Assembly (NCBI GenBank): GCA_019633425.1
Contig: WSUB01000048.1
Coordinates: 62,001 to 126,000 of the forward strand
Direction: 5' to 3'
Length of the DNA stretch: 64,000 nucleotides
Origin: Tulasnella sp. 424
Lineage: Eukaryota; Basidiomycota; Agaricomycetes; Cantharellales; Tulasnellaceae
Position 1 is the stretch's first letter; the number at the start of each line of letters is the position of its first letter. Position numbers and translations under genes: made by a program. Of this stretch, positions 43,290 to 57,476 are shown piece after piece. Under the pieces are notes generated by a model, which was not told the origin of the DNA, made no database searches, and saw only the letters and a list, made by a program, of their open reading frames with translations.

Positions 43290-45524
43290 TCATTCTGCCC
43301 GCCTTTCCTGCGCCATTCTCTGTCCAAGCCGCTTCATGAGACTAGGCATAGATGTTCGCTGGTCATCCTCAGAGTCGTTGCTGGACCCCGAGTCTGAAGT
43401 TCGATCCATTTGATCACATTGGCTTTCCAAGTAAAGTTTAAATTTATTCCTAAGTTCCTTGAGGATGTTCTGTTTCGTCTCTTCAGTGGCTTCAAGTGGC
43501 GGACTCCAGCTGTAGACTTTCCCGTGCTCTACAATGTCTCCATCGTTGACGTTGAGGGCTTTCAGTAGTGCGGCGCAACAGAAACAGCAGCGTTTTGATA
43601 TCCCGATCAAGCATTTCTGGCCCTAACTCGAGAGGAACGTATCATTAAAAGGCTTAGTATAAATAACTCGACACCACCCACCGCCGGACTCTTCTGAAGG
43701 ATTTTGTAAGCCAGCTGTGCCTCACAGTGAATGCCGCCGCGAAATCCTGATCCCCATGAATCCGATACCGCTTCATCGGTTAACTCCCGATTTGCAAGTG
43801 TTTGGAGGAGCCCTTCCCTGGCACCACTCTGACATCGTGCCACAGCGTTTGTGCGAAGAATGCCTATCATCAAGTTTACATCGGATTTAGGGAAAATCGA
43901 CTTCACTGTGTCGACGAGAGAGGCTTGCTGATTAGGGGAAGGGGATATTGGCGCTACTGTGACGTCGATGGCTAGGTTCTTCGACAAAATCCCGAGTTTC
44001 TTCGGGCCCCGTTCAAGATCCTCGAACCCATGATGCCACTGGGTGATAGACTTCATCCAATGACGAGTCATTCTAGTAACCTGGGACCAGAATTTTGAAA
44101 TGACGTCGTGCATGTCCTCCACCTGTTCGGTTTTTCTCCCGGACCGAGCGTTCCCCGTCGTCTCAACGTCGCTCGTTGCGTCTTCGTCATCAGACTCGTC
44201 GGAGTTATCGACATCAATCGTTTCCATTGGTTGGGGGCTTGTTGGTTGGCCTACATGCGCTGTGGAAGGTGGAGAATGTCCAACGGATTCTTGACTTGGA
44301 AAGGCTCGACCAGTGCTAGGAGTACCCTGTTCACGATGTATTTCTGAGCCCTGCTATATGAAATAAGATTGGATGACGAAATCATGAGCCGGAAAGATAC
44401 TCACTAGTCGACGTTCAAGCAGAGGGGCCATCCTTTCCATGACGATCCAAAAGCTCGGCGAATGATGTGCCAAGAGGAATATGAAGCCCATGTATTCTTC
44501 GACCTCGTCGAGAAGGTCTAGTGCAGATTGAAACTCCTCCTCCTTGATTTTATCCCGTTTGATTTTCAGTTTTTGAATATTGGTGAGAGTAGTTTCAAGA
44601 TGTCCAAGACAATCCTTGAAGCAAGTCCATACTGCCCACTGCTCCTCGATGTCGAGGATCAAACGGTACGGTTTTGCGGTCGAGAGTTCGAACTTGCGTT
44701 CAGGGTACACCCCTTTTAGTACGATCTTCAACGTTGACTCGTCCTTAGTAGCCAGTCTTCGTGGTATAACGACGTCCTTGGTGCTGTTCGCGCGATAGTC
44801 GTCAAGTGTGATCTCGTTCACAGTAGATAGAAATAAGGCCTTGTAACGGGATTGATACCCGGTAATCTTAGACTTAAACCGCCGAAGGATCTTGTCAAAG
44901 CAGAAGGAGTAGAGGTAACGACGTAAAACCCTGGTCGCATTTCCTCTATCATCTGCTGTTTCGGTTTGGTACACGCATCTAAGTAGATGCTGAAGGATGA
45001 CGCCATGGGCTTTTGGAGAGATGTGTTTGGGACCCCTGCCAGTAGGGCACGATCAGAACGATAGCAGACGAGTTGTGAGGTTACACACCATTGAAGGCAA
45101 CACCGGGCCGGTTCTCTGAGGATATCAGGCGATACATCGTTTAATAACTCGGAGTGTTCGTTTTTGCTATTGATGGCAAAACATTAAATTCCCCGCTCAT
45201 GCAGGCTCATGCTATCTTGACGCACCTGTAATCCGGATTCTTCACGACGGCGAGCCGACCCGCATCGCTTTCGGCTTGTACGGTTTGGAATGTGACGTGA
45301 TTGTCCTCAACTAGAGCCGTAGTTGCTGCAACATCGCCAGATGCGCCAGACACGAAGAAAAGCGACATGCGGTCGAACTGGTCATATCGACCACTTTGGT
45401 GGTACCGGTTCTTATCTCCTGAGTTGGGCGAGAAAAGAGCTAATGCCGTGGTTAGAGAACGTATGTCTAAGTCTGTTTGACTGAGGGTTTGGGGGTGGGG
45501 CAAAGCGCTAGTGGAATCTGCCAT
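43290..45524 (-). CDS. OTT_1508-like deaminase-fold protein, free-standing copy (D1)
   Basis: Minus-strand exons 45524-45226, 45166-45089, 45035-44405, 44353-43682 and 43622-43290 (670 residues). A further 5' exon (from ATG 45888, joined in phase across 45705-45540 or nearby) is possible. A helical region comes first ('YLYSFCFDKILRRFKSK', 'SPSFWIVMERMAPLLERRL'), then an acidic linker and a C-terminal domain with 'GGIHCEAQLAYKIL' and, after an intron, 'LIGISKRCCFCCAAL'. The spaced HCE and Cys-x-x-Cys motifs are the zinc-binding signature of the deaminase superfamily; the arrangement fits the OTT_1508-like family (PF14441), which is expanded in basidiomycetes. Catalysis is unproven. Intact in this model. 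Confidence 0.65.
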
Positions 45525-46205: not shown

Positions 46206-47939
46206 CTATTCCATCGCCTTGATTTTCGTGATGAGGTAATCCACCAGAAGTGGACTAAGACCTCCATTCGAGTCGTTGCCGGACCCCGAGTCAGGAGTTC
46301 TGTGCCCCCGGCGATCGCAGCCTTTCAAGTAAGCTTCAAATTTTTCTCTGAGCTTCTTCAGGACGATCTGTTTCGTCTCTTCAGAAGCTTCACATGGTGG
46401 GCTCCAGCTGTAAATTTTCCCGTGCCCGACAATGTCCCCGTCATTCACTTTGAGGGCTCTGAGTAGCACCGCACAACAGAAACAGCAGCGCTTTGATACA
46501 CCGATCAAGCATTCGTGTCCTAAATTGGAAGAAACGATTATTGGAAGGATCGATAGAAACAAGTCGGCACCACCCACCGAGCTCCTTTGGACGATGTTGT
46601 AGGCCAGCTGCGCCTCACAGTGGATGCCACCGAGAAATCCTGACTCCCACATCTCCGATACCGCTTCATCTGTTAAATCCTGATTTCCAAGCGCTTGAAG
46701 GAGCTCTCCGGTGGCACCGTTCAGAGATAGCGACGTGGCGTTTCCTCGAAGAATGCTTAACGCAGCCTCTACATCGGAGCTGTAGGACGTTGATTTGATC
46801 GTTTCGATGAGGGAGGTCTGCCGGGATGGGAGAGGAGACATGGGTGCTACTGTGACGTCGATAGTCAGGCTCTTCGACAAGATCCCGAGTTCCCTTCGGC
46901 CGTGTGCAAGGTCTTCCATTCCATGGTGCCACTGGGTGATAGATTTCATCCAATGACGGATCATTATGGTAACCCGAGACCAGGACTTTGAAATGACATC
47001 ATGCAAATCTTCTGGCCGTTCTGTCTTTCTCGCGGAGCGACGACTCGGATTGCGTGTTGTCTCCACATCGCTTGTTGCATCGTCATCATCTGACCACTCC
47101 GAACTGTCCGCATCAGCCGTTGCCGTCGAATGGGGGCTTGATGGATGATCGCCCGGACCTGTTTGTGTTGTGGAGGATGGGGGAGAATATTCAGCCGAGT
47201 CTTGACCTGGCTCTGGGTGACGGGTTGGACTAGCGCTAGGAGTACGGTTGCCACGCGTTTCAGGACCCTGTTATAAAAAATAAGCTCGACAAATCCATCC
47301 GCCAGGGAGATACCTACTAGTCGCAGTTCAAGCAGGGGGGCCATTCTTTCCATGACAATCCAGAAGCTTGGTGAGTAATGTGTCAAGAGAAAAATGCCGG
47401 CCATGGCCACGTTAAGCCCATCGAGATGTGCTAGCGCAGACTCTATCTCCTCCTCCTTGATCTTGTGTGGTATCCCTTTCAGAGCCTGAAGGTCGCGAAG
47501 ACAGTCTTGTGCCTTTCCAAGGAAGTGCTTGAAGCACTCCCAAAGATTCCACTGATTCTCAGTGTCGAGAATCAGTCGCTTATCAGCGAGCTTGACATTG
47601 CGGCGAGGTAATAGCGCTTTGAGTAAGGCGTATATTCTCGTTTCGTCCCTAGAGGCGAGCCTTTGTGGCAAAACGACTTCCTTTTCGCTATATGTTCGGT
47701 ATTCTTCAAGCGTGATACTGTCGGTCGGCGGTAAAAGCAAGGAGACGTAATGGGGCTTAAAGCCCGGGATTTTAGAGTTAAACCGCCGAAGGATCTTGTC
47801 AGTGCAGAATGAGTAAATGTAGCGGTGGAGAACCTCGGCCCGTTGATTTCTGTCCGCTGGTATTTCCACTTGATACATCGATTTAAGAAGGTGCTCGAGG
47901 ATAGCGCCGTGGGTCTGGGGAGAGATGCTTTTGGGACCC
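46206..47939 (-). CDS. OTT_1508-like deaminase-fold domain, copy fused to NACHT-WD40 gene (D2)
   Basis: Minus-strand exons 47939-47318, 47267-46571 and 46519-46206 (about 544 residues; the last intron, 51 nt, is in frame and may be retained). It aligns with D1 from D1's third exon onward: 'ISPQTHGAILEHLL', 'RYIYSFCTDKILRRF', 'HYSPSFWIVMERMAPLL', acidic linker, 'GGIHCEAQLAYNIV' and 'LIGVSKRCCFCCAVLL'. The metal-site residues HCE and CxxC are kept. It lacks D1's first two exons. Instead, the splice acceptor before its first exon is followed upstream, within about 45 bp, by WD40 sequence of the kinase-NACHT gene, so it may be the 3' part of a chimeric gene. The frame is open 5' into the WD40 region but in a different register, so fusion needs splicing. 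Confidence 0.65.
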
Positions 47940-47984
47940 CTAGGACACCGCGATAAGAACACAAACTGGTCTCGTCTGTGAGGT

Positions 47985-50900
47985 CGTAGGATCCGGATGC
48001 CAGAACATTGCCGTCTGGTGAGAACGCGACGGACACAACGAAGCCGTTGTGGCCTGTCAGTGGCTGGCCCAAAGGCGTTCCCGTCTGAACATCCCACAAT
48101 TGAACCGTAAAGTCATCCGATCCGGATGCCAGAACCTCACCATCCGGCGAAAATGCAACTGTGTTCACATAATCACCAGCGCCTCTAGTCCACAGATTCG
48201 CTGACCATGTTAAGGGCTGAACACCGCGCAGCGTTCTGATTTTCGCGTGCTCCCCATAGCATTTCCATAGCTGAGTCTCCTGAGGACAGTGGGAAAGTGC
48301 CGAAATATAAATGTGGAGCGCTCCGAAGGAAATCGGCTCTGAAAATGCGACGATGAACCGCTGGGCATCATTCCACAATGTGGTTAGAGACTTGGAATCG
48401 AAAATCGCCTCGTCATGAGATCGCTGTGACAGTCTATTCAGTACACCCAGTTGAATTGAGAAATTGAATCCGACCGGTAGACTCACCGAGAGCCATGAGT
48501 ACACGCGTTTTGCGATCACAATTGCCTCCGTAGTACCTCCAATCAGGCTCATTACTTCAAGCCAGTACAGGAGCTTCCCTGTGCTGAACCGTTCGAATTC
48601 CGCTGCTTGGCCATCGGGGCCCTCTGCGACCAGCTTCGACCACTCCGCCCCTTCGGTCAGATGAATGGACCAAGCTCGGCTGCAGTAACGAATAGCCGGG
48701 GACACCTCCCGTTCGATAACATCCTGCATCTCCGAGTTCGCCTTCGAGAGGTCCGACAGGTTGCAGATATTCTCCTTCAGACATCGAACCATGATGCTAA
48801 GGCATAGACTTGCAAGTCGTTCATGGTGCTGATGTACATCGATATAGTACCCCAGTTCCTTGCATCGCTGCTCGTTAATGAGAAGGTCACGGATGGAGGT
48901 GTGCACGAGGTGCATAGATTCGGTGGGTGAAGCTGGGATGAGGAGGAGGGAGTTGAGGTCCGCAAGAATGTCTTGGCGTAGATACTCGATCACACTCTCT
49001 TGATCAACCCCTTCGAAGATGATGTTGTCACCGTAGAATGCAGCAATGGCATTAAGGGAGACGGGATACGGCGCAACAACCAGGGTTCCTAGTACGGTGT
49101 ACAGAACCGCTTGCTTCGCTGCGTCGAGCCTGACGTTCTCGAACGCCTTTGAAAGGATCTGGTGGTACAGCTCGTCGAGCCCATTCCATGTCGACGGTCG
49201 CTTGAGCAAGTCGCGTAGTCGATCTACAGGCGATCCGTTTCCAATGTACGTGATCACAGTTCGGGCCCATTGAAATAAGCCTTGTGACATATCCACCAAG
49301 CTTCTGATGTCACTGGATGCAGGCCAGTCTTCTGAGAGACCATGGTCTTCCCGAATCTGCGTGCAACCTTCCTTGATGAACCGGGCAACGTCGTCCACCA
49401 CATTGACTGACGATTCTAGATCTTCTACTAGCCACCTCCTTGGTTCGAGGGCACGAAGTAGCTGTGCCTCTGGGCGACAAGTGAGGAGGAATTTGACGTT
49501 GGTGGGAAACGAGGCAGAGTGTCGGTCAATGAGCTTGACGAAATCCACGACATCTTTGGGACTTTGAGATTCGTCAAGGGCGTCGACAATAATGAGGATA
49601 GGGTGAGGGTGATGTATGAGCTTTGAAAGGGGTACGACAAACAGGGTCTCAAATTGGACGTTGAGTCGTTGGTCCGCGATGTCCCCGTTTTGCTGCACAC
49701 TGTCTAGGACCGCATTCTTGACCTCTGGGATCAGACTGCTACCAAGCTGCCTTGCGAGAGCACAGACAATACGCGCGTTCAGCGTATTTTGGCCACGGCG
49801 GAAGTGAAAGATGGCACAAGACGCTCGGGATTGCCAGCTGTGAGCCACGGTGGATGCGATGGTGGATTTGCCTCGCCCAGCCATCCCGCGGACCCATAAC
49901 ACCCGGTCCGGGGTGGATGCGTCCCTGATCCACTCGTCAATCCGTCCCAATATTTCGACCCTGGTTCCTGGCAAGCAAACGACATCCTTGACCGCATTTC
50001 CCTGTGCTCCGTAATTTCCATCTCCCAGGCGATCGAGTAGACCACGGCTTTGCTCTTGAATTCCAGCGTTTCCTGGACACAAACGTGTTAGCCTACCCAA
50101 GGCTTCCAAATGTAAGGCTACGTTGCCTACCGAATTCAGCCAGAAGAAAACTAGTGTCCAGAGTGACGAGGAGCTAAAATTACGAAAGATTAGCCAGGGT
50201 CATTAGTAATGATGCTCCATAACGGACCTGGACTTCCTCCAACACCTTATGAATTGTTCCCTGACACCCTTCTTGACTTGGCGGGTTGGACGAAGAAAAC
50301 TTATTCCGGCCGACTCTAAAGAAATCCCGTTCTTTAATCTTCCCTCGCACCCATTCGAGTTCCCTGGAGAGGGCGTTAGAGTTCTGATATCCAACCACTG
50401 GGAGACCGGATCCCACGTACTTCCGTATATCAGTAACACGAGCACCCATATCACCGCCCCGATGCTGCCTCAACTGTTCCCCAAAGTCTTGAAGATACTT
50501 GGCCAATTTCCACGGGTTGAGCTCCAGACTGCTTAACACATTTTCGCCTTTGTTCATCGCCTAAATAGGGAACTTTAGCGGCAACGACGGACGAAAGCGA
50601 AACCATTGACTCCACCTCAACAATCTCCACCAAGTTTAGCCCTACTTCCGCGACGGCTCCAATATATTTTCCAAGAACCGGAATAACTTTTGAGTGTAAT
50701 TGCACACTTTTCAATGTCTTACGAGTGATATGTAATGATTCTCCACGCATCGCAGAGTGCTTTATGTTCGCCACGCGCACGCCTGATGGCGAAGATCCCG
50801 TGGGGATAGGATCAGCAGGGAGTAAGGGCAAGTTGCCTCCGTGTTGCGGGGCACCTGGAAACTAGAGGGCTGATGTTAGATGGAGTTCCAATGATATACG

Positions 50901-52136
50901 CGGGCTTACATCGAGATCCATGTCCCAGTGTTCGCGGGCGCCGCCGTCAGGAATAGACCCAGGGTCGGGTCCTGACAGCTGATTAGACTCTTCGTGGATA
51001 GTTTGTCCCAACAACTAGGTAAAACAAATGTGATTTTTACTATCTGGGTCGGAATGGACTGTCACGAAGGCGTACCTCCAGTACCTCCCGCATCGTGGGT
51101 CGGGCAGCTGGATCCTTCTTCCAGCAACGGCGCATAAGATTCCAGAGAGGATCATGGGGCGGTAGGTTCGGGTGGTCCTTTGGAATAGGTGGTCGGTCTT
51201 CCATCAAACGGCGGAGAATGACGTGATCCAGCAGGCCGTCAAATGGTGGTTTTCCACTCATGACCTAGCGAAACGTGCTGGCTCGTGAAACCTCCCCTAG
51301 TGCTCGCTTGCACATACTCACAGTTAAAATAAGACCACCAAAAGCGTATACGTCCGACTCCGGGTTTGGTTTCTGTCCAGTGGAGACTTCGTTGGCCATA
51401 TACTTCCAAGTTCCTTTGACCGATACGCTGGTTGTGAAGCCACTCTTGGTGTCCTGGACAACCTGACTCAGGCCAAAGTCTGAAAGCGCGGGATCATGCC
51501 CGTTGTTGATCAGCACATTTTCCGGCTTAATGTCGGCATGGCAGATTGGAGGGGTTCGCGAGTGCAGATGCTCTAGGCCGCAAGCTGTCTGGGAGATCTG
51601 GAAGGATATGATGAACAAAGACCTAAGGAGAGAAGATAATGTGGAAGGCGACACACCAGCCGAAGCTTCTCGCATCGGGTGAGGCCAGGATTCGCCAGTA
51701 AGTAGTCTGTTAAATTGCCGTGGTGGCACCAAGGGCTAATGAGCCACGGGTGGGGGTACGAACGATATCCGAGTAGGGGATGAAGGTTTGGGTGTTTCGC
51801 TTGGCTCCAAACGAAAGCTTCTCGTTTTAGACGCTTTAAACAAGCAAAAGTTGAGACGTACCGCACTAAATACATATATTTCAAAATACCCACCATATCT
51901 ACTCTCCGCTTCAGCGCTTCCTGCTCAGTGTGCCTGTCCTTCGGGATAGTCCTCAGTTGCTTGATTGCCACTTGAACTCGCTCGCCCTGAGGGCTTATCC
52001 AGAACCCGCGATAGATATCTGCATAACCGGCGGTCATCGTAGGTTGCTCAGGAACTTCTATGAACCCTGTGAGTTCTTCGACTGTCTCGAAGAACTCCAA
52101 CTGTCGGCCAGGTTGAACGAGTGAACTCGATTCCAT
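47985..52136 (-). CDS. Kinase-helical bundle-NACHT-WD40 protein, copy 1 (WD40 truncated, joined to D2)
   Basis: Minus-strand exons 52136-51894, 51833-51657, 51597-51322, 51264-51076, 51014-50910, 50861-50616, 50560-50455, 50397-50228, 50173-50131 and 50072 to the breakpoint at about 47985; all phases agree with copy 2. Kinase at about residues 35-295: 'QVAIKQLRTI', 'HADIKPENVL' (HRD Arg replaced by Ala), 'DFGL', 'ANE' in place of APE, 'SDVYAFGG'. A helical region at about 345-515 ('TLKSVQLHSKVIPVLGKYIG') resembles the four-helix N-terminal domain of fungal NLRs and MLKL. NACHT follows, with Walker A 'GMAGRGKST' near residue 585 and Walker B 'LIIVDALDES', then the helical 'YCSRAWSIHL...WLEVMSLIG' region and 1.5 WD40 repeats. 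STAND NTPases oligomerise on ligand binding; allorecognition or defence is inferred. Confidence 0.75.
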
Positions 52137-52558: not shown

Positions 52559-52689
52559 TGCCTAGTGGTCATCTTCACCCTCGCAGAGCACTCCAGTAGC
52601 GCCGACGCCGACGCCCTATACCAGAACGCAGGCACAAAGTGCGGCCATTATTTCGAGGAAAACGCAAACGTCGCGCTTCACAGGTAGCT

Positions 52690-52870
52690 ACTAGTCAACT
52701 ATTCTTTCCCAATTGACCTCTACTACTCGGCCGATTACCACCCACAATCTCCGGATCGAACCCATCGTCACTTTCATACGTCGGAAGTCTCCTAACCGTG
52801 GGTTTCGGCACCTTCAACGTACCTCATTCCATCTCATCGTCCTCCTCGAACCAATCGAAGATTGTCACGA
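52690..52870 (-). pseudogene. Truncated copy of the right-edge gene
   Basis: Nearly identical to the C-terminal codons of the gene at 63691-64000 ('DDGFDPEIVGG', 'RPSSRGQLGKNS'), but a Trp codon has become TGA after 'DEME' and the 5' part is missing. Shows that the duplication that made the two kinase-NACHT genes extended past their 5' ends. Confidence 0.65.
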
Positions 52871-52921
52871 TCCCGAAAAACAAAAGGTTTATGGCCAAGG
52901 TACAAAATGGTAAACACCTAC

Positions 52922-54899
52922 CTCTTCACTTCCAGGCTCGGTTAACCGTTTCTGGAGCTCGCGTTCTAGCAAGTGTTGGAATACCGCTGATGATACGGCA
53001 ACCCCGGACACTTGACCGATTCCTCGGAAGAGTTGGGTGAAACCCGTACCCACCGCGAGCATAGAATCTGATTGGAAAGGAGTGGCATAGGTTTGGCAAA
53101 TAGAACCGTGAATTTGAGTTAAATTGAAGAAAATGTTTATTCTGTCGGCTTACGGGGGATTGACGCCAGGAGTGCGACTTTAGGGACGAGGGAAAAGGTC
53201 AGAAAAAGACGACATTCTAGCGTTGGTCGGCGTTTCGGATTCCTTTCCCAACTCACTCAAAGCCGATTGTAGGACCACGGCATTTCCAAATCCCAAAGGA
53301 ATCTAAGGTCGAAAGCACAAGGAAAGAGGTCAGCCGCCAAGTCCCTCTATCACGAAGACGCGCATCAGCCTATGGAACTCACGATACTCAGCCACTGAGT
53401 GATAGCCCACGAGTTCTTTTGGAGTCTGGCGAGAAGCAAAGCAGCAAATGTAGGCAAGATCCCAAACATGGTCGTGAGGGACTTGTATTTTCCCGTATGG
53501 TGCATCATGTACCCTGCGAAGAGAGAGCCGATACTAGGCAGGGAGGAGATCAACGACAAAGGTAAGTAAGGAGTTTAGGGGGTACGTACCTCATGGAAAT
53601 AGAATTAGGCATGATATGTAGTCCTGGATGATTAGGAACCTGGAGTAAAGGGTTGAGTGATGAATCGCAGACTCGAGTCCATTTACTTACCTGCAACTGT
53701 GACACTCGTGCGTTGAACCGTCTCAAACCTAGACTCAAGAATGAATCTCGTTATTATCCGCTCGCGTATTCAACAAAAAAAAACGGGGTGCCTGCTCACC
53801 ACATCCGAAGGTAAAACTGCACCGAGAAATTGCAAACTGACACGATCATGTTCGAGACCCTTACAAGCAGGGGCGTTCTTTGCACGAGCAAGTTGGGGGC
53901 CAAGACTGGTTCCGCGGCGACGAAGAGTTTCGCGAAGATGAACGCGACGAACCACGTTGCGGTGGAGATGATCGACATTATGACGCCCGGGTGAGAGAAC
54001 GGGAGGTCTTCGTAGTATTTGAGCGAGAGGAACATGATGTACGACGCGACAGCGCAGAGCAAGGTCAGGCATCCCCAGTAGTCGATCCGTTTGAGGACTT
54101 GGAGTGGAGATTCGCTTCGGCCGGGAGTTGCGTAGGTGAGGTTGATGGTGATCGGTGTGAAGGAGAGAAGGAAAACCGGTGCTGGGATAGTGAGAGGGAT
54201 CAAGCCGCTATCCGTCAGCAGTCTTTCTAGCAGGAGAAACGTCTGACGGAGCATAACTTCTCACCTTGAAGGCAGAATGCATATCTCCATCCGAGCCTGT
54301 CTGATATGTACCCTCCTATTTGGACCGCCCAAGCCAAGTCCGAGGCCGACGGAGATGTTGGCGTAGCCTTGGGTAAGACTTCGGTCTCGCATGGAGTAGA
54401 GGTCGGATACGCAGATGGACGAGGCTGTGAAGATCCCTCCTCCACCAAGTCCAGCGAGCTTTTGAATCAAGGGCCAGTTAAGCTCTTAGACCGAACTTGG
54501 AATCGCAGAGCAAGATAACCCACGAAGCGAGCAGTAATGAGAAGCTCCAATCTCTTACAAAATCCACATGCGACGGTTCCCAGAGCGCAGAAGAATACCA
54601 CTGTTTGATAAGCTGCTCGACGACCTGCGGCGTTGCTTAGACGTCCGTATAGGGGTGTGAACGTGCATGTCGCGAGAAGGAAGCTGAGCTCCGAGTTACG
54701 TTAGAAGTTTGACTTTTCGCGCAGGGGCGAGTGGGGAGGATACGTACGATGTGCCGAGCCAGCTGATTTGATTTGCACTTGTAAATTCTGAGGCAAAGGT
54801 CGAGAGCACTAGGTGGGAATGAATAGGGGGGTGGTCAGCGAGAAAAGTATTGAGAGGAGGACAAGCAGTAAATGATATATGCTCACGTGTCGCCACCAT
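52922..54899 (-). CDS. MFS transporter, degraded at both ends
   Basis: Multi-exon MFS gene on the minus strand. Readable order: 'STFASEFTSANQISWLGTS', 'FTPLYGRLSNAAGRRAAYQ', 'GLGGGGIFTASSICVSD', 'GGYISDRLGWRYAF', 'EPVLAPNLLVQRTPLL', 'VCNFSVQFYLRMW', 'HIMPNSIS', 'GSLFAGYMMHHTGKYK', 'TGFTQLFRGIGQVSGVAVSS', ending at 52922 with 'LTEPGSEE' before a GT donor. This matches the fungal MFS group of vacuolar basic amino acid and related transporters. Upstream of the ATG at 54899, in-phase coding for TM1 is broken, though exons to about 55270 look transporter-like. The last exon is absent: about 50 bp beyond the donor the sequence switches to the duplicated fragment at 52870. Probably non-functional or making an altered C-terminus. 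Confidence 0.55.
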
Positions 54900-55270
54900 T
54901 GTTGCTATAGTGCGCGAAATTTAACAGGAGAGCCGAATTATTCGTTGAAGAGCTCGGCGAGAAGTTTTGGATGTAGTTACAGTTCACAGCCTGCCGGTCA
55001 CACGACAAGTTAGAGATTACAAACTGGGAGCATTAGAAAGAAGCGCTCACCGGTAGAAATTTTGCTAGCCATAAGCCGCAGGGAGTAGCTAATCTCTGTC
55101 GCTTCGAGACGTCAAGGGGATCCAGCTCCACGTTTCCCGGCAAAGGCAGCTCTCTTCTGGTCGCAAGGTCTTTAATTGGGAGGGCGTCATCTGAGTCGGT
55201 CGAACTTCTGCTAGCTAGGAATGATTAGCTTCCTCACTGAGGTGGCACGGTCCCTTCGCCCCGTTGTTTT

Positions 55271-57476
55271 AAGTTAGAGGCGTCGTTTGGTGGTTGTGGA
55301 GAAGGAGTCGGGGCGTCGGTGGCGGTGATGCCATTGTCCACATGGTTTAATTAGGATGAACCGAAGGGCCAGAGGCCGAAATGGCGCGAGCGAAGATTGC
55401 ATAACAAGTCGTTCTTTGTTCTCCCTGGCGGTTGGGATACGAGCAGAGAGCGCATGACTTGGACGGGATGCGTTGGAAGGAAAAGTTCATGGGGGATGTG
55501 AAATATGAAACTTGGCAAGGAGCTCCCTGTTTATCGGTAGCGCCGGTTAGGTCCGAGGTCCCCCGTTCAGCGGACTTGAGATTGGACCACCATCCGACGG
55601 CTCCCCCTTTCATCATCATCATGAACTCCCCTTCCTCTGACCGCGATGCAGGTCATGGCAAGGTCGTCCAATCACAGCACAAAGCAAGTTACAGCCAAAT
55701 TGTCCGCAACGCCACCTGTGCAAACCACCTGCCGTCCCAGTCCATCCGGGAGGACCAACCCCCCATCACACGCAGAGACGCCCCAGTTCGAGGCAGACGG
55801 GTTCTTACCATCACCTTTCACCCGAATATGTACTGCCATGACTGGGCGCTCTTCCGAGGTGGCACTTGGTTGAGCGAGGATGATACTCGCCCGACCAGCA
55901 GCAGCATCTCAGAGACTGGGTGCTGAAGTATATACTTCCTCGGCCGCTGTCGACTCTCTATTATACTCGACTCTGATTACAAACACTCCCGCACACATCC
56001 CCTCGATGAACAAGACATACAAAATCCAACCTGGTGCACATATATAAACGACAGTCCACACTCAAATCTCGCCTCGCCCTCTGTTGTCTCCCAGCCAGCT
56101 GTGGATTGGGGTCCCATAGCCCGTTGGCAAGGGATGAAACAGCTCTCCCGATACAGCAATAAACGAAGCAGAGGGAGCGAGGGACCTTCCGGACGATGGG
56201 GAGCTGGGGTTGTCGCCCAGCAACATGGCTGAAGGGGGGGAGGGGTTCGAAGGACGCAGGGGAGGCTTTGGACGAGGTTAGCAAGACACCATGGTATCAA
56301 AACCAGGAGATCTCCCCACCGCAACCGGACCGCGAACCATCTCGACCTACAAGTTACTGCTCCAACATGCGGGAGATTTTTCGACGTCGCCGCCGGATTA
56401 CACTTAGGATTGGGGTGCGTTTTCCGACGAAATCGCCCCCAAGACCGACTTTCAAGCCTCTCAGGAAGGATGTTGCGGTGGTTAATATGGGGCCCACTGG
56501 CAGTCACCTCAGGCGATCTACTACGACTGCGGAAGACGTCGCCGAGGATGACGCGGAGGGGAACCAAACCAGGTCCGAAAGCGACAAGGTCATCGTCCGC
56601 CTTCGGTCAAGGTCGTCAACTCGTCCTGGGCGCGACGGAATGAGATCCGTTCTGGGTGAACACCGAGTCTACGCGACAACGGCGAAGGAGGTCTGATGAT
56701 TTAGAGGGTCCGAGGTAGTTTGAGGATGGGAAGGTGGGGTCTGTGAGGTTGCTGGGTGATCCGGAGGTTGGGAGCGAGCAGTTCGTCAAGAAGTAATGAA
56801 GTGGGGGGATAGGTATGTACATGCGAGGCGCGTTGTGCTTTTGCGAGGTGAGAGAGTGCTCATTGATGTTCTTTCTCTGCCCTGTATAGGTTGATCACTC
56901 TACACAACAATTCTCCTCTCATGGCGGCTCTACTCAAATGAAGGCACAACAAGTATGCGCTACCGAAACATCATCTCCGCCATTAGCTTCGAGCGCATCC
57001 GATCGAGAACGTCCCTCGCCGCCCACGAGTTCAAGTTTACACCCTACTAATGCTGCGATGAGCGTGAAGGAGGAGACCTTGGGGACAGGTTGTGCTCGGG
57101 GGTGGAGTAGTACGGAGGGGTTTTGTGCTCTGCCAGTATACATTTTATTTCGTTTCCTTCGTTTCGCTTTCATCTCTGGCACGAGCATACTACTTGCACG
57201 TGTCCACATATTATAAATCATACAGCCATTCTCATTTCACGTATAGGCCCATTACAACACCATTTGCAAGCCACAAATCAAATAAGCATGTCGCATGCGA
57301 GGAAGCAAATACCTTGTTACGATCAAATGAGACATAGGTCACGACCCTTCCTCTAATGTGCGTTTCCAACCAATCATTACCGCCTAAAGGCACGGAATCA
57401 ATTGTACCTCAAAAGTTCTCCAGCCGGTTTGAACGCACGCGGCACTACGTATCGAGCATGCAAGGATTCATTCAAG
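55271..57476. other. Mostly unassigned region
   Basis: Open frames overlap on both strands (plus from ATG 55622; minus 56567-55961), but none shows a recognisable domain, signal peptide or clear splice pattern, and I cannot choose between strands. The last 250 bases are the 3' flank of the kinase-NACHT copy 2. Confidence 0.3.

Follow-up and report, generated by a model that had tools for sequence, protein, structure and literature searches.

A kinase-NACHT-WD40 gene joined to a 5'-truncated deaminase gene inside a former intron in Tulasnella sp. 424, and its putative fusion product

In a 64,000-nucleotide stretch of contig WSUB01000048.1 from Tulasnella sp. 424, a member of Tulasnellaceae in Cantharellales (the window, to which all coordinates refer), a kinase-NACHT-WD40 gene, NLR1 (52136-47986), continues directly on the minus strand into a 5'-truncated deaminase gene, D2 (47939-46206). 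The locus raises the question of whether the two parts are read as one protein. That the DNA join is chimeric, with the front of NLR1 and the back of D2, is nearly certain. An expressed in-frame NLR1-D2 fusion appears plausible from the features of the sequence, although we put it somewhat short of an even chance. The features are summarized in Table 1.

Table 1. Features of the NLR1-D2 locus and of the neighbouring deaminase gene D1, in window coordinates.
Feature	Position	Strand	Evidence
Protein kinase exons 1-4 of NLR1	52136-51894, 51833-51657, 51597-51322, 51264-51076 (51076..52136)	-	Pfam on spliced model
NLR1 linker exons	51014-50910, 50861-50616, 50560-50455, 50397-50228, 50173-50131 (50131..51014)	-	Exon model
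NLR1 NACHT/NPHP3_N exon	48487..50072	-	NPHP3_N 91 bits, NACHT 39 bits
Last NLR1 exon, two WD40 repeats at its end	47986..48423	-	Two WD40 stretches matched by profile
Breakpoint zone CGACCTCAC	47978..47986	-	Partly common to both parents (microhomology)
3' remnant of the ancestral intron 2 of the deaminase gene	47940..47986	-	Match to L038 and to L039 not equalled in 5000 shuffles
D2 exon 3, first surviving exon of the deaminase gene	47318..47939	-	Alignment with D1, L038 and L039
D2 last exon(s), OTT_1508_deam	46206..47267	-	PF14441 match and alignment
D1, neighbouring deaminase gene with N-terminal exon	43290..45524	-	Annotated as FRC04_008561, 643 aa

The join and its NLR parent

For the junction search, window positions 47000-49000 were used as query against the organism's own genome (46.8 Mb, 448 contigs). 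After the self match, the best 23 matches to NLR paralogs begin at query 978-991, corresponding to window 47977-47990, and those to the two nearest deaminase paralogs break off at query 985 and 987 (window 47984 and 47986). Among the matches listed, some lower-ranked and shorter ones begin elsewhere (e.g. at query 1071, 1407 and 1460), and more distant copies also occur there. The starts of the NLR paralog matches agree with a preliminary description of this DNA, which had placed WD40 repeat 2 of the kinase-NACHT gene immediately upstream of the D2 remnant. A 29-mer across the junction occurs once in the genome. At the breakpoint the NLR copies L002 and L007 read GACTTCACGG and GACTGCACGG, respectively, so the stretch common to both parents is at most about 8 bases. 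NLR1 and D2 have the same orientation, and by coordinates D2 is the sole deaminase match less than 5 kb from a NACHT match among the best 150 of 167 NACHT candidates.

The predicted ten-intron model of NLR1 is open throughout. Nine of the introns have their GT..AG ends conserved across seven copies, and the tenth (50454-50398) was inferred from NLR1 together with breaks in its paralogs at that position. In the spliced model the kinase matches PK_Tyr_Ser-Thr with 127 bits and Pkinase with 120 bits and contains VAIK, HAD and DFG motifs, while a Pfam search of the linker gave no match. The NACHT exon encodes a Walker A motif (GMAGRGKST) and a Walker B-like motif (LIIVDALDES). By gene model and collinearity, kinase, NACHT and WD40 belong together in NLR1. 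Across the genome, 46 matches to the kinase-linker stretch were found; 21 of them, NLR1 included, span at least 1,850 of its 2,101 bases. Since these copies are collinear, kinase-NACHT-WD40 is an established local family. The parent gene proposed in the preliminary description is supported. What is absent from NLR1 is a complete WD40 array, as it has two LWD-like motifs compared with 10, 12, and 10 in the copies C434, C299, and C303. Two WD40 repeats are too few to close a propeller.

Values of dN/dS for NLR1 against six paralogs range from 0.24 to 0.33. Taking N147 as the sister and C434 as the outgroup, we count 55.5 amino-acid and 79.5 silent changes on the NLR1 branch, against 64.3 and 73.7 on that of the sister; with NLR2 as sister, the figures are slightly less favourable (67.5:71.5 vs 54.5:64.5). 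The idea that NLR1 is the only intact copy was dropped, as unmodelled introns caused most of the apparent breaks. After intron masking, C303 still shows a 1-nt gap (codon 474), and both N147 and N173 carry a stop at codon 469, directly beyond the masked intron. When annotated proteins were searched for an NLR at this locus with the read-through model as query (lengths about 750-2400 aa), the best 120 of 153 matches at E<=1e-20 all showed at most 68% identity.

The gene order, combining the window with L048, is MFS2, NLR2, broken MFS1, NLR1, D2, and D1. The MFS gene that lies upstream of NLR1 is a copy, at 87% over 2702 bp, of that upstream of NLR2 (window 52605-55507 and 63571-66921) and has an internal gap as well as a stop near its end. 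MFS and NLR look tandemly duplicated. Two partial annotated proteins, P0006 and P0008 from Tulasnella sp. 408 and 417, run from the C-terminus of an MFS transporter into the N-terminal part of a member of the deaminase family; both carry the deaminase N-terminal exon and both stop short of the CxxC motif. The MFS-deaminase fusion in these models is probably an annotation error, while the adjacency itself is plausible, and in these two strains the transporter appears to be followed immediately by the deaminase gene. In the present genome an NLR lies between the two, and one deletion or insertion at the microhomology would explain the join.

The intron remnant and the deaminase family

The sequence preceding the first surviving exon of D2 corresponds to the 3' part of deaminase intron 2. 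Over 45 nt (47986-47942) it aligns with this intron with scores of 56 (C393/L038) and 55 (C235/L039), and none of the 5000 plain shuffles scored as high. The preliminary description had reached the same identification by comparison with D1. The direction of that claim was right, and it holds against L038 and L039. In intron 2 of D1, only ACCTCACA aligns with the remnant (score 16), and 308 of 5000 shuffles scored as high; D1 alone was therefore rejected as proof, which needs the two nearest paralogs. In L039 the ancestral intron is 52 nt long and reads GTATGC followed by GACCTCACAGACGAG...CTAG. When the introns are aligned, L039 has GTATGC-GACCTCACAGACGAGATCAG...TGTACTAG and D2 retains GACCTCACAGACGAGACCAG...TGTCCTAG. 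As D2 thus keeps the L039-type intron from about position 6, the breakpoint lies some 6 nt from the original donor, within the distance of about 10 bp first suggested. A branch-point-like CTCAC is seen by eye at 47982-47978, and the acceptor CTAG, ending at 47940, scores 4.94, inside the range of the modelled acceptors. The event had been called exon shuffling. The rearrangement and its place inside an ancestral intron are supported; the term is less apt because a deletion or insertion at short microhomology took away the 5' end of D2.

D2 matches PF14441 with 36.9 bits against a cut-off of 27, which supports the supposed deaminase family, and with 40.5 bits in the genome search. Its putative catalytic motifs, HCE (HxE) and CCFC (CxxC), are aligned with those of its relatives. 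In the genome, 20 PF14441 matches were found at E<=1, 18 of them above the cut-off; four deaminase genes lie next to one another on C406, at 72-85 kb. When PDB sequences were searched with the alignment of the deaminases, there were two matches, with E values of 0.71 and 0.84, which were taken as chance. D1 has its exon-1 match at 45524-45228, and pieces of exon 1 and exon 3 were found in FRC04_008561. A profile of exon 1, made from five relatives, has matches at 19 of the 20 deaminase genes, D2 being the one without. Of these matches, three belong to genes built into the profile (D1, C235, and C393) and four are weak, with domain E values between 1e-4 and 0.01. Exon 1 of C393 is that of P0002. 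As all 13 exon-1 matches of the protein search (E<=0.001) fall at deaminase genes, no orphan exon 1 and no reciprocal product of the rearrangement was seen.

Under the spliced model the reading frame of D2 runs through 542 codons without a stop or frameshift. The last exon(s) may contain an intron (46573-46520), and the frame is also open when this is retained. One nucleotide has been lost beside the last acceptor, where the frame is open only with the intron retained or with a weaker donor. An out-of-frame opening of 137 codons on D2 was also considered and dropped, because the same frame in L039 is, after one stop, likewise mostly open. The locus L039 (C235:121001-131000) has an in-frame stop and a 1-nt deletion in its deaminase gene, and the annotated protein, P0009, stops early (389 aa). 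Against the two nearest paralogs, dN/dS of D2 is 0.55 (L038) and 0.50 (L039). Amino-acid to silent changes amount to 45:29 on the D2 branch vs 35.5:36.5 for L039, and to 37:24 vs 38.5:33.5 for L038; the corresponding figures for L038 against L039 are 33:16 and 28:24. As judged from these substitution patterns, the coding sequence shows past constraint on NLR1 and D2, which may predate the join.

Splicing across the join and competing readings

Deaminase intron 2 is a phase-2 intron, and a single protein would need a phase-2 donor in the WD40 coding sequence. Candidate donors were scored with a matrix made from the 16 modelled introns of NLR1, D2, and D1, which are 48-63 nt long. Neither of the donors named in the preliminary description survives: there is no GT at 48042, and the one at 48090 (GTTCAG) is in phase 0, whereas the acceptor at 47940 needs phase 2, and scores below all modelled donors. 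An in-phase candidate is GTGGGA at 48097, located in the LWD motif of the first remaining WD40 repeat. Its score of 4.7 is above 95% of 187 exonic GTs and above 31% of the modelled donors; against a fusion, it implies an intron of 158 nt, well outside the modelled lengths. The donor GTCCGT at 48034 reaches the 71st percentile among exonic GTs and the 6th among the modelled donors. It would give an intron of 95 nt to the ancestral acceptor or, with an acceptor that ends at 47976 and scores below all modelled acceptors, one of 59 nt. In-phase donors are thus present, but none is strong at a typical intron length. All six fusion models (three splice choices times two) are open to the D2 stop, with predicted products of 1698-1749 aa. 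Without such a splice, and again against a fusion, the NLR frame departs from the deaminase frame and stops at 47572. Also against it are the base lost beside the last D2 acceptor, the D2 branch counts of 45:29 compared with 35.5:36.5 for L039, and the annotation of a letter-identical D2 as a separate 540-aa protein in Tulasnella sp. 425. Among 7998 candidates scored, no annotated protein of about 970-3100 aa, as expected of a long fusion, matched the deaminase part at E<=0.001. In three paralogs (L045, L046, and L047), 26 of 32 LWD motifs carry a phase-2 GTGGGA, so a WD40 break combined with a phase-2 intron would readily find an in-phase donor. Phase-2 GTGGGA in LWD codons could ease the in-frame capture of genes that broke within phase-2 introns.

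At the DNA level, a kinase-NACHT-WD40 gene cut off after WD40 repeat 2 is joined, inside intron 2 and via short microhomology, to an OTT_1508-like (OLD-type) deaminase gene minus exons 1-2; a single deletion between tandem genes or insertion of an NLR copy would be enough. In the reading that we tentatively prefer, the NLR promoter would now drive one transcript over both genes, in which the retained branch-point-like site and acceptor would recruit a donor from the WD40 coding sequence, the best in-phase site being that at 48097. The putative product of about 1700 aa would comprise, in order, kinase, linker and NACHT, a fragment of a single WD40 repeat and the deaminase. The deaminase domain would stand in place of the presumed WD40 sensor and would act as an NLR-gated RNA deaminase or as bait for viral factors directed at OLD enzymes.

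The join may instead be a rearrangement scar, a serious possibility to which we would give well over one chance in four, though under one in two. NLR1 would then yield a repeat-less protein, or its mRNA would be destroyed, and D2 would be a silent 5'-truncated relic, with no fusion protein made. Such an outcome is suggested by the lack of a strong donor at typical intron length, by the loss from D2 of an N-terminal exon matched in all other family members, and by the nucleotide missing at its last acceptor. Broken copies in the same families also occur nearby, namely L039 and the MFS gene upstream of NLR1, and the unspliced NLR frame has introns downstream of its stop, a setting in which mRNA decay would be expected. 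The 542 intact codons of D2 and its preserved catalytic motifs argue in the other direction, as does the D2 branch ratio of 45:29, which is below a neutral ratio near 3:1 as estimated from site numbers. D2 is no outlier in this respect, because L038 against L039 gives 33:16.

We consider it improbable that the locus holds two genes, with a D2 promoter in the 3' part of the NLR and translation from an internal methionine (codon starting at 47878). P0001 (FRC05_007948, 540 aa) from Tulasnella sp. 425, annotated as a separate gene, is letter-identical to D2 from this methionine onwards, with the last intron retained, and this favours such an arrangement; the absence of the N-terminal exon that 19 of the 20 family members have, and the loss of the natural 5' end of D2, weigh against it. 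An assembly chimera is highly improbable, for although WD40 arrays are repetitive and the assembly is in 448 contigs, the bases common to both sides at the join are probably too few to mislead an overlap assembler, the window contains no N, and the assembly of Tulasnella sp. 425 also annotates D2 in a model without exons 1-2, which bears on the D2 gene only and not on the junction.

Relation to known systems

The closest functional reference for the deaminase part is OLD, the OTT_1508-like deaminase of the OLD-ZAO system of Neurospora, described as carrying out antiviral A-to-I mRNA editing (Honda et al. 2025, as given in PMC12754623; see also PMC13327615). D2 belongs to the same PF14441 family and has the HxE and CxxC motifs; it differs in lacking the N-terminal exon and in its place behind an NLR. 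With regard to the zinc-finger partner of OLD-ZAO, none of the 30 PF00096 C2H2 matches listed lies at D1/D2 or at other deaminase loci, a result that concerns the PF00096 type only.

On the side of the NLR, fungal proteins of this class are described with NACHT and WD40 domains (PMC9815663), and PKinase is among the domains listed for them, so that the kinase-NACHT part alone is not new (PMC4986451). Kinase, NACHT, and WD40 follow in the same order in NLR1, as they do across its collinear kinase-linker copies, and P0012 from strain 425 has kinase, NACHT, and 13 WD40 stretches. NLR1 departs from these proteins in being left with only two WD40 repeats, followed by a deaminase gene. In plants, NLRs with integrated domains have a foreign domain fused to them, possibly as bait. 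The putative NLR1-D2 fusion would resemble them in having acquired a foreign domain, although it comes from another kingdom and a bait role is hypothetical.

A further-reaching proposal is that the locus makes one kinase-NACHT-deaminase protein whose WD40 sensor has been replaced by an antiviral-type RNA deaminase, acting either as an NLR-gated RNA editor or as an integrated decoy for viral attack on OLD enzymes; we regard this as rather unlikely. In the first case, NACHT activation would gather deaminase units. In the second, the deaminase would serve as the bait. For most fungal NLRs, no trigger is known. If true, a natural OLD-NLR join would offer a direct clue to the link between editing and NLR sensing, and the join would represent a case of NLR domain acquisition via a retained half-intron. 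A literature search, judged by the titles listed, returned no report fitting a NACHT-deaminase with RNA editing in fungi or Tulasnella NLRs, and nothing on a deaminase as integrated domain of fungal NLRs. The NLR repertoire of these fungi appears in two further observations: the 46.8-Mb genome has at least 150 NPHP3_N matches, and a related NACHT protein of strain 425, P0057, has an MLKL_N match ahead of NACHT (residues 332-454).
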